Positions 49,464 to 61,050 of a stretch of 64,000 nucleotides of DNA are shown here, piece by piece (the first letter of the stretch is position 1; every line of letters begins with the position of its first letter). Where the stretch lies: positions 1-64,000 of the forward strand of contig PHAA01000009.1 in NCBI GenBank assembly GCA_002840245.1, read 5' to 3'. The position numbers and the translations under genes are program-made. This stretch comes from Firmicutes bacterium HGW-Firmicutes-15 (GTDB lineage: Bacteria; Bacillota; Syntrophomonadia; Syntrophomonadales; Syntrophomonadaceae). The notes beneath the pieces are model-generated. The model saw only the letters and a program-made list of their open reading frames with translations, was not told the DNA's origin and did not search any database.

Positions 49464-49700
49464 TTCCACCCTTCACCCATCGGGTACTCCCGATGTTCCC
49501 GATGGTCACCTATTTAAGGTTGCGGGTACTACTGGTGCTCCCTAGCTGTCGCCACTAAAGCTGCACCCTGCGGGCACTACTGGTGCTCCCACCCTTCACC
49601 CTTCGGGTACTCCCGATGTTCCCGAGGGTCACCTATTAGGGTTGCGGGTACCACCGGTGCATCCTTACGGATGCCAATAAGGTTGCTGGCAGTCGCTATT
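49464..49700 (+). repeat. intergenic repeat family, locus 2 (several tandem modules between gmk and remA)
   Basis: CGGGTACTACTGGTGCTCCC 49523-49542, CGGGCACTACTGGTGCTCCC 49571-49590, variants CGGGTACTCCCGATGTTCCC near 49481 and 49604. Confidence 0.88.
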
Positions 49701-58029: not shown

Positions 58030-58884
58030 CTAAATTTTATCTATTTTATTTTGATTTTTATATGCATAATATGCTCGAATCTTCTCCATCATATCCGTAT
58101 TGATGCCAGCAAAACCTAGTCGATTACGGCTCTCACTGCTTCCCCCGCCATGAAAATCTGATCCCCCAGTTATTAATAAACAGTGCTGCCTGGCTAGGCG
58201 GGTAAATTCCATTATTTGATCACTATTGTGTTCGGGATAAAATATTTCTAAACCCTCTACACCCATGCTAATAATCTTGCCTATTTTTCCGGAATCCTTA
58301 ATCAATCCTGGATGCGCCAAAATGCTGATTCCCCCGGCTTGTTTAACCAACTCTATAGCCTCTGCAGGTAAAAATTTATAGCGCGGTATGTAGCCTGGCT
58401 TGCCCCGGTCAATATATTTCCGGAACGCCTCCTCCTCTGATAACACATACCCTGCCTGCTGCAGAGCTCTGGCAATATGGGGCCTGCCAATGAGATCACC
58501 CTGAGCAAGTTTTTTTACGTTTTCAAAACTTATACTCAATCCAATTTCCTTCAGTTTATCAATCATCTTCTCCGCTCTTTGGTATCTCTGAGTACGAATT
58601 TCCATTAACCTATTAATAAGATGTTCATCATGATAATCAATAAAATAGCCCAGAATATGTACTTCATCATCACCAAAATCAGTGTTGAGTTCGATTCCAG
58701 GAATAAAATCGATATTTTTACCATGTGCCTGAATAAATTGTAGGGCAGGTTCCAGTCCATCCACGGTATCATGGTCAGTTATGGCTATACCCGCCAGACC
58801 TATTTGGGCAGCCTTTGTAATCACCTGTTCCGGTGTCTCTACCCCATCTGAAGCTGTGGTATGAACGTGCAAGTCGTATAGCAT
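58030..58884 (-). CDS. PHP-domain phosphoesterase (RNase AM/TrpH-like)
   Basis: DLHVHTTASDGVETPEQV, GIAITDHDTVDGL, ILAHPG, GGSDFHGG. Confidence 0.92.
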   Translation of the reverse strand: MLYDLHVHTTASDGVETPEQVITKAAQIGLAGIAITDHDTVDGLEPALQFIQAHGKNIDFIPGIELNTDFGDDEVHILGYFIDYHDEHLINRLMEIRTQRYQRAEKMIDKLKEIGLSISFENVKKLAQGDLIGRPHIARALQQAGYVLSEEEAFRKYIDRGKPGYIPRYKFLPAEAIELVKQAGGISILAHPGLIKDSGKIGKIISMGVEGLEIFYPEHNSDQIMEFTRLARQHCLLITGGSDFHGGGSSESRNRLGFAGINTDMMEKIRAYYAYKNQNKIDKI

Positions 58885-58938
58885 TTAATTCCCTGCTTTC
58901 CAAATAAACTATTTATAACATAATAACTCAAGGTTCGT

Positions 58939-59352
58939 ATTTGACGGATTATGGCAACAGCAAATATACTGATACAATTCCCCAATGAACGATATTTTGC
59001 TGTTGACTGTGATCTGGGGTTAACAGATTTAGTAATTCTGCTTGCTCCCATCTCCGGAGGCTCGTTCTACCAGCTGCTTGCCGGGCGAGCTTCAGGGGCA
59101 CCCTGTCAAATCTCCCATCCGAGGTCGATGACAGGCGAGGAACAGGACGTTCCGAGCCGGGCACCGCCCACGGACGGGCGGTTGGCCGGGTACCCTCAGG
59201 AACTCATCTGGCAAGCAGTTGACAGCCCGAGACTCCGGAGCCTGGAGCTGGCAGAATTGCTGAATTTGTCCACCCAGCTTCCGCTCAACAGCAAATCCCG
59301 TTTCCCTTATACCTTAGTACTTCAGAAGTTTGCTGCGCATAATCAGTCAAAT
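58939..59352. repeat. ~414-bp imperfect palindrome (giant hairpin), centre ~59146
   Basis: Paired segments share one centre: ATTTGAC 58939/GTCAAAT 59346; CAGCAAA 58958/TTTGCTG 59329; TTTGCTGTTGA 58996/TCAACAGCAAA 59285; CAGATTTAGTAATTCTGC 59024/GCAGAATTGCTGAATTTG 59251; GGAAC 59139/GTTCC 59149. Confidence 0.9.
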
Positions 59353-59389
59353 GCGCAATAATCGAATCCATTAGCCTATGTAGCATCAT

Positions 59390-60319
59390 CTATATAACCT
59401 GCCTAATTACCCCCAGAGCATTTTCACTTAGTATCATTTCTATTTCGCGTTGTAAAAATCCTCTCCGAGCCATAATTACAGGAAGCTCAACATATCCTCC
59501 TACCTGCGGGATAACCATATTATCTGCTCCATCAAAATCAGAACCCAATGCAACGTGTTCAACCCCAATCAGGTCAGCAATATACGCTATATGGTCAAGC
59601 ATATCTTCTACACTTGCACTGCCTTCTTTGACAAAGTCTGCTACCTGAGTGACCCCAATCACTCCCCCATGCTCAGCCAAAGCCCGCAGTTGTGTATCAT
59701 CCAAGTTCCTCCAGTGCGGACATAAGGCTCTAGCATTGGCATGGGTAACCAACACTGGTTTAGAATAGTAAGTCAGGGCCTCATAATAAGACTTAGGGGA
59801 AATATGAGCTAGATCCAGCATTATTCCCAAATCACTCATTTCCTCTACTATTTCTTTTCCCTTGCGGGTTAATCCCCCGGCACTTTCTCCTTCTCCTACT
59901 CCATCTGCTAGTAGATTGCGATGGTTCCATGTCAATCCCATGCTTCGCAAACCCAATCTGTAAAGTAATCTTAATATCTCCACATCATTCCCCAAGCATT
60001 CTGCTCCCTCCAAATGCAAAACACAAGCCAGTCTATTGAAATTATCTGATTTTAATAGATCACTGCTATTTTTGAGATGATAAGCATATAAATTCTTGCT
60101 TTCCATTTCCGCTAAGAATTTCTCTATTTGCTTTAAGACCTGCCTTAAAGAAGAATTTCTGTCAGTTGGCATGGTAAAAAGAGCAAAAAACTGCAAGCAA
60201 ACATTTGCTGCTTTTGCTCTTTCCAGATCAAATTGGGCTTCGTTTCTTAGTAGGGAAGCGCCACTTGAGCTTAAATTGGAAATAGTATCACAGTGTAAAT
60301 CCACAATTTTCATTTTCAT
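59390..60319 (-). CDS. membrane dipeptidase (M19)
   Basis: DLHCDTI, GLTWNHRNLLADGVGE, DLAHISPKSYYEAL, PVLVTHANARALCPHWRN, GSDFDG. Confidence 0.94.
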   Translation of the reverse strand: MKMKIVDLHCDTISNLSSSGASLLRNEAQFDLERAKAANVCLQFFALFTMPTDRNSSLRQVLKQIEKFLAEMESKNLYAYHLKNSSDLLKSDNFNRLACVLHLEGAECLGNDVEILRLLYRLGLRSMGLTWNHRNLLADGVGEGESAGGLTRKGKEIVEEMSDLGIMLDLAHISPKSYYEALTYYSKPVLVTHANARALCPHWRNLDDTQLRALAEHGGVIGVTQVADFVKEGSASVEDMLDHIAYIADLIGVEHVALGSDFDGADNMVIPQVGGYVELPVIMARRGFLQREIEMILSENALGVIRQVI

Positions 60320-60813: not shown

Positions 60814-61050
60814 TAGGGACTATCCAGGGATAAATAAGGCAAAATACTCCGCTTATTGTATGTGCTAGACAAGGCTTCAAAGCGTGGTAATAACAGAAAT
60901 GCCCGAAGGATGTGAACACCAGCAACATTAGTTGCAACCTTGAGGGAGCATCAGTAGTACCCGCAACCTTAATCGCGACCATCGGGAGCATCAGTAGTAC
61001 CCGAAGGGTGAAGGGTGAAGGGCGCACGTTTTGATAACGAAGTATGAGCT
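60814..61050 (+). mobile_element. MITE-like element, copy A (carries a nested intergenic repeat)
   Basis: TAGGGACTATCcaGGgATAAAtAAGGCAaAATACTCCG...CTAGACAAGGCtTCAAAGCG...TTTTGATAACGAAGTAT shared with copy B in inverted orientation. Confidence 0.75.
60904..61023 (-). repeat. intergenic repeat family, locus 3 (two cores, nested in MITE-like copy A)
   Basis: GGGAGCATCAGTAGTACCCG at 60944-60963 and 60984-61003 (reverse of CGGGTACTACTGATGCTCCC). Confidence 0.85.

Follow-up and report, generated by a model that had tools for sequence, protein, structure and literature searches.

Giant palindrome of a Syntrophomonas genome as a probable deletion product of a composite mobile element with TwoAYGGAY-like cargo

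TwoAYGGAY RNA (Rfam RF01731) was described by Weinberg et al. (2010; PMC2864571), is filed as cis-regulatory in Rfam and has been of unknown function since then, although it has been proposed to bind and sequester CsrA (PMC4333381). In the searchable literature it figures as an RNA of unknown function, and we found no statement there that it is mobile. Miniature inverted-repeat transposable elements (MITEs) and the REP palindromes of REPIN/RAYT systems (PMC3116915, PMC2817692) are, like TwoAYGGAY RNA, each already known. Our search of the literature on nested palindromes, on Syntrophomonas repeats and on RAYT-associated REPINs in Firmicutes returned no direct precedent for the arrangement reported here, which we encountered in a stretch of 64,000 nucleotides (contig PHAA01000009.1 of Firmicutes bacterium HGW-Firmicutes-15, positions 1 to 64,000; hereafter the window).

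A giant palindrome and its sister copies

An initial annotation of the window had placed a near-complete imperfect palindrome at 58939-59352, between a dipeptidase and a PHP-phosphoesterase gene. The palindrome is real, lies at that position and is far above chance; its extent had been slightly underestimated, as the element that contains it is bounded by end motifs and spans about 58926-59361 (Table 1). When positions 58920-59370 (451 nt) were folded, the plus strand reached -213.1 kcal/mol (shuffled sequences, -136.9 +/- 6.2; z -12.4) and the minus strand -203.4 kcal/mol (shuffled sequences, -144.8 +/- 5.5; z -10.6), and none of 100 shuffles folded as well. Aligned without gaps, the left arm and the reverse-complemented right arm share 202 columns, 147 of which are Watson-Crick, and the region matched itself on the minus strand by BLAST at 70% over 300 bp.

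The host genome (G000; 3.47 Mb, 84 contigs) contains further copies of the element at C49:48487-49228, C72:9803-10587 and C31:28336-29177 as well as shortened copies at C49:40755-41073 and C37:74497, and several more copies are present in a genome of the same genus (G006). Full copies measure ~740-930 bp, and homology between them extends over the entire element even for copies at different loci: the C49 copy is 85% identical over 749 bp to a copy on contig C114 of G006, and two G006 copies residing at different sites are 94% identical over 687 bp. In this full-length architecture, common to the two species, the interior is made up of two inverted units of ~215 bp, UL and UR, which are about 79% identical, are each palindromic themselves and are separated by a spacer. 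Aligned with the C49 copy, the left 217 bases of the window element correspond to the left end and the right 220 bases to the right end, while ~293 bp of the middle are absent, a deletion deduced from diverged copies rather than from an allelic intact copy; GGC is common to both sequences at the join. Positions 58921-59136 are 83% identical to the C49 copy and 94% identical to the left arm of the C72 copy, whereas positions 59134-59353 are 91% identical to the C49 copy. The H module (Table 1) constitutes the sole cargo of the C37 copy (L025).

Table 1. Positions of the features of the window element and of its flanking genes.
Feature	Position	Strand	Basis
Complete composite mobile element, copy with a (probable) internal deletion	58926..59361	.	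palindrome fold, end motifs, empty sites
Dipeptidase gene, one flank of the element	59390-60319	-	
PHP phosphoesterase gene, other flank of the element	58030-58884	-	
Left O terminal inverted repeat (AACTCAA..TTCG..TTGAC.GATTATG)	58926..58961	+	model R1, E 8.3e-6
Right O terminal inverted repeat	59330..59359	-	model R1, E 4.3e-7
H module, left arm (CAGCAAA...TTTGCTG)	58958..59002	+	sequence reading; present in other copies
H module, right arm (CAGCAAATCCCG...AGTTTGCTG)	59289..59335	+	sequence reading
One half of the inverted, TwoAYGGAY-like unit UL (sense = -)	59022..59136	-	copy matches
One half of the inverted, TwoAYGGAY-like unit UR (sense = +)	59134..59272	+	copy match
Deletion junction UL/UR, 3-bp GGC microhomology	59134..59136	.	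match ranges, junction sequences
R2 (TwoAYGGAY-like core model) match, 62.8 bits, both GGA-loop hairpins kept	59098..59219	+	
R2 match on the opposite strand, overlapping, 34.9 bits	59073..59193	-	
Apex hairpin GGAAC-AGGAC-GTTCC, first GGA loop	59139..59153	+	sequence, R2 alignment
Second hairpin, loop CCACGGACGG, fits AYGGAY	59157..59189	+	R2 alignment
UL-derived second hairpin, loop UCGGAU, AYGGAY lost	59102..59135	-	R2 alignment

These comparisons make it highly probable that the palindrome represents one copy, shortened by an internal deletion, of a dispersed, composite and nested mobile element of the genus Syntrophomonas. Since the outer half of UL is joined to the outer half of UR, the window element is palindromic by construction, and this fusion explains both its symmetry and its lack of a wobble bias: the excess of plus-strand wobbles originally counted on three segments was not borne out over the full arms, which give 12 plus-strand (G-T) and 12 minus-strand (A-C) wobbles. 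The two alternatives offered in the initial annotation, a MITE or two inverted copies of a repeat, both turned out to be right for the locus, which is a dispersed MITE-like composite holding two inverted copies of one unit. Long inverted repeats commonly suffer deletion at microhomologies, and the window copy, taken alone, is ordinary and presumably a relic. It illustrates that a simple internal deletion between two inverted copies can produce a spectacular giant hairpin, and the interesting part is the family to which this copy leads.

The dipeptidase-PHP gene pair is kept in three relatives (G001, G002 and G005), where the intergene measures only about 30-40 bp, identifying the window site as an insertion that is empty in these genomes. 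As both genes lie on the minus strand and almost abut in the relatives, the element has probably landed within an operon. In the sequence of events that we propose, the outer shell of the element (O) would have inserted between the two genes with a cargo of inverted UL and UR units, homologous to TwoAYGGAY RNA and joined by a spacer, whereupon the deletion at GGC would have removed the spacer along with the facing halves of the units and fused their outer halves head to head.

Two other interpretations of the hairpin were rejected. The only strong match of the window in a relaxed Rfam search was to MIR918 (68.7 bits, both strands, with a cut-off of 268 bits), and we read it as reflecting hairpin shape only because this microRNA-precursor model is one long hairpin. 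A protein-coding reading was dismissed as well: neither of the two ORFs that overlap the element had a Pfam match, and the other element copies possess no frame comparable in length to the 136-aa ORF of the window.

The outer shell and its cargoes

The end model of O (AACTCAA..TTTCGCAGTTGACTGATTATGCGCA) recognised 26 ends in G000, including both ends of the window element, and 34 in G006, and few or none in other congeners. The shell encloses at least four different cargoes, namely a GTCATTCTGAACGAAG..GGATGAC repeat (L026, L027, L028, L168), RAYT-type REPs (L093, L110, L116, L175), a ACACAGACGGACAC repeat (L176) and the U composite, and one copy is devoid of cargo (C79:102509-102576; L166). 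Cargo turnover is seen at orthologous sites that have the O shell in common and differ in its content (C64 of G000 versus C112 of G006; C18 of G000 versus C42 of G006). Target duplications of 6-8 bp flank 5 of 15 paired O copies (the clearest being ACAGTTA, GTTATAA and ATTATATA), a number that was never equalled in 20,000 shufflings of right against left flanks (permutation p < 5e-5); no target duplication was recognisable at the ends of the window copy. O thus combines terminal inverted repeats, lack of coding capacity and insertion polymorphism, the hallmarks of a MITE, and would presumably be moved by a transposase acting in trans. No autonomous transposase was seen for either O or the second, GATTCCNCTGC-ended shell described below, and the paired O ends of G000 and G006, all less than about 0.9 kb apart, include no autonomous parent.

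Several contigs end inside O cargo repeats (C18, C30, C59 and C68 of G000 and several G006 contigs), and the copy number is therefore underestimated owing to assembly breaks. REP-like sequences also occur elsewhere. The window contains a dispersed repeat of this kind (CGCAACCTTAAT..GCGACC..GGGAGCAT..AGTACCCG..GGGTG) at 49473-49525, 49596-49647 and 60961-61011. The same CGCAACCTTAAT-type repeat forms tandem runs in G026 and recurs in the C31 copy, whose two arms carry it at mirror positions. The C31 copy carries two different REP-like inserts at mirror-image positions of its two arms (L023:1091-1141 and 1701-1752; 1212-1265 and 1573-1625), which suggests arm-to-arm copying or insertion before the units were paired. 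At five Syntrophomonas loci (L104, L106, L097, L098 and L105), RAYT genes are flanked by inverted GGGACG-type repeats, each with its own sequence (GGGGACGG in most, GGGACGTTC in L097).

The unit U and TwoAYGGAY RNA

At curated Rfam thresholds the window and the first five sister loci had no match, in keeping with the initial failure to recognise a known RNA family. U-like units are present, however, in the relatives G001, G023, G025, G026, G027, G031 and G034, and in a relaxed search several U units aligned across all 168 positions of TwoAYGGAY RNA. The best score in the genus was 38.2 bits (L091), below the gathering score of 43 bits; no U unit of G000 reached the latter, and the window itself did not match RF01731 even at relaxed thresholds. 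When 61 relatives were searched with the RF01731 model, above-threshold matches were obtained in five (G009, with 54.5 bits, G048, G017, G045 and G056), with 28 matches in all in G017, and 14 control genomes yielded zero above-threshold matches.

The core structure of 23 U units is well conserved (95.4% of cells paired), and in 16 of its 27 pairs both sides have changed. Cells with double changes number 104, compared to 30.6 +/- 4.6 in shuffled alignments and 5-19 when the structure was slid, and the covariation score is 0.497 (shuffled, 0.203 +/- 0.014; slid, <=0.09). In five or more genera the units retain a branched tip that shows compensatory changes, and the strand chosen by the Rfam model is the better-folding one in nearly all U units. 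While G-U and A-C oppositions number 65 and 48, respectively, over the whole U stems, lineage-level events in the conserved core amount to 26 versus 7 on the fitted structure, 15 versus 4 for pairs predicted from both strands and 18 versus 11 when the predicted structure is that of the opposite strand; in view of this last ratio, we consider the support for strand polarity moderate and not strong. U probably functions, or functioned in the past, as a folded single strand, either RNA or, less likely, single-stranded DNA. The wobble evidence for a structured plus-strand RNA failed at the locus, yet the idea of an RNA proved right one level down, both inverted units being divergent TwoAYGGAY-like RNAs whose covariation is real.

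A core model of U (R2) gave eight matches in G000, all in inverted pairs and distributed over four elements, the two strands of the window element included. The best window match (62.8 bits) falls below those of uninterrupted units (105-125 bits), scores that express relation to sister copies and not an independent family assignment, R2 having been trained in part on G000 U units. Overlapping matches on both strands are as expected of a chimera: the plus strand of the window element holds most of one TwoAYGGAY-like RNA and the minus strand part of another. The loop of the second hairpin reads ACGGAC on the window plus strand and ACGGAU or AUGGAC in most units, and the apex loop reads ACAGGAC rather than AYGGAY, except in G023 where ACGGAC fits. 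In the U alignment (A3), GCGAAG opposite AAGC is conserved and resembles the reported tandem-GA stem, the comparison extending to canonical pairs only.

One point against the proposed explanation is that common ancestry of UL and UR gives a palindrome regardless of any RNA role. A MITE or inverted repeat devoid of RNA content, its complementarity reflecting the symmetry of inverted copies and nothing else, would account for the symmetry, the terminal inverted repeats, the target duplications and the dispersal. We nevertheless regard such a purely DNA-level explanation as unlikely, given the upkeep of the branched tip across genera, the full-length alignment of U to a curated RNA family and the preponderance of G-U over A-C on one strand, which shrinks on the opposite-strand structure.

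U appears in Syntrophomonadaceae to travel as cargo of mobile elements. R2 matched 20 times in G023, 27 times in G026 (2,936,195 bp) and 10 times in G027. In G023, U lies within an element of ~271 bp with ends GATTCC(N)CTGC (terminal inverted repeat GATTCCNCTGC), and a 6-bp target duplication flanks all nine copies in which both ends were recognised; three U copies of G026 have duplications of 6-7 bp, bringing U copies in this second shell with 6-7-bp duplications to 12 of 22 testable ones (permutation p < 5e-5). The GATTCCNCTGC ends number 51 in G023, 54 in G026 and 110 in G009, and a reversed control pattern had zero matches. Additional GATTCCNCTGC elements examined at eight loci (G009 and G023) contain cargo other than U, R2 matching only L282, the already known TwoAYGGAY locus of G009, and in G031 single U units are found with O-like ends. 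One and the same structured unit hence occurs in two kinds of MITE shell, each of which is also found with other cargo. As side observations, G009 harbours a family of AT-rich MITEs that measure 227 bp and have GATTCCACTGCAAAAA ends (e.g. C1, 51891-52117; L276; 110 end matches in a genome of 2.36 Mb), and a U-bearing element of G026 (L255:548-731) lies near a cobalamin riboswitch (134 bits).

U most likely serves as a structured passenger that mobile elements carry and that is transcribed along with the element or the host operon; regulation of the two flanking genes is less likely. The palindromic cargo could enter shells by transposition, as the exact match of RAYT-type REPs to RAYT flanks would suggest, or by recombination. 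More tentatively, TwoAYGGAY could be not an ordinary host sRNA but the conserved structured part of a mobile-element family, acquired by two or more unrelated MITE shells, its one-strand fold being kept for the spread or persistence of the element; the fold might, for example, be maintained because a transcript or single strand is recognised by a host or transposase factor.

A rival reading takes up the published proposal for TwoAYGGAY: U would be a CsrA-sequestering sRNA, and mobile elements would have spread it owing to a benefit for the host. GGA-bearing hairpin loops are conserved, and csrA was detected in 12 of 17 examined element-carrying genomes, including G000. However, csrA was undetectable in G023 (99% complete, 20 copies) and in G041 (96% complete, 2 matches at E <= 0.1), and multi-copy genomes without CsrA weaken the idea; moreover, the AGGAC apex loop of most units is one base short of AYGGAY, and multi-copy spread with target duplications fits selfish dispersal. 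A sponge of this sort therefore seems to us rather improbable, and we favour the passenger role of U with modest confidence.

The function preferred in the initial annotation, a locus-specific plus-strand RNA of ~400 nt, can draw on the very stable folding of both strands and on the two GGA hairpins retained on the plus strand, with their R2 score. The site is empty in three relatives, though, the sequence is chimeric, derived from two inverted units and matched on both strands, the wobble bias is absent and the score stays below that of uninterrupted units, all of which renders such an RNA very unlikely. Movement of the hairpin as a REPIN or REP cluster by a RAYT transposase is mostly refuted and retains hardly any credibility: RAYT genes are present and REP modules in sister elements match RAYT flanks (31/31 bp for a G006 RAYT, 21/21 for a G000 RAYT), but those REPs are inserts in other copies that the window element lacks, and its O and U layers do not match RAYT flanks.

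Comparison with known systems

Taken together, the data place a TwoAYGGAY-like RNA in many copies and in two types of transposable shell, including genomes seemingly devoid of csrA. If this is true, an orphan RNA family is reframed as a mobile-element RNA, and the way is open to direct tests of the CsrA idea as well as of a part played in mobility.

Akin to the REPs of REPIN/RAYT systems, the sequences described here are intergenic palindromes, and RAYT-type REPs are nested in sister O elements of G006; by contrast, the O and U layers of the window are much longer, unmatched by RAYT flanks and associated with shells that have 6-8-bp target duplications. O resembles MITEs in being short and non-coding, with inverted ends, target duplications at some copies, many copies and empty sites, and differs from them in that its parent transposon was not found, its cargoes are nested and exchangeable, and a structured RNA unit is among them. 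U shares with TwoAYGGAY RNA the two adjacent GGA-loop hairpins on a stem and the poorly conserved outer stem; its conserved GCGAAG..AAGC stretch is reminiscent of the tandem-GA stem described for that RNA, and its match spans model positions 1-168 on the predicted strand. It differs from TwoAYGGAY RNA in that the copies of the genus score under the gathering threshold, in that AGGAC frequently takes the place of AYGGAY in the apex loop and in that U is dispersed, with many copies inside elements bearing terminal inverted repeats and target duplications and, in Syntrophomonas, as inverted pairs.
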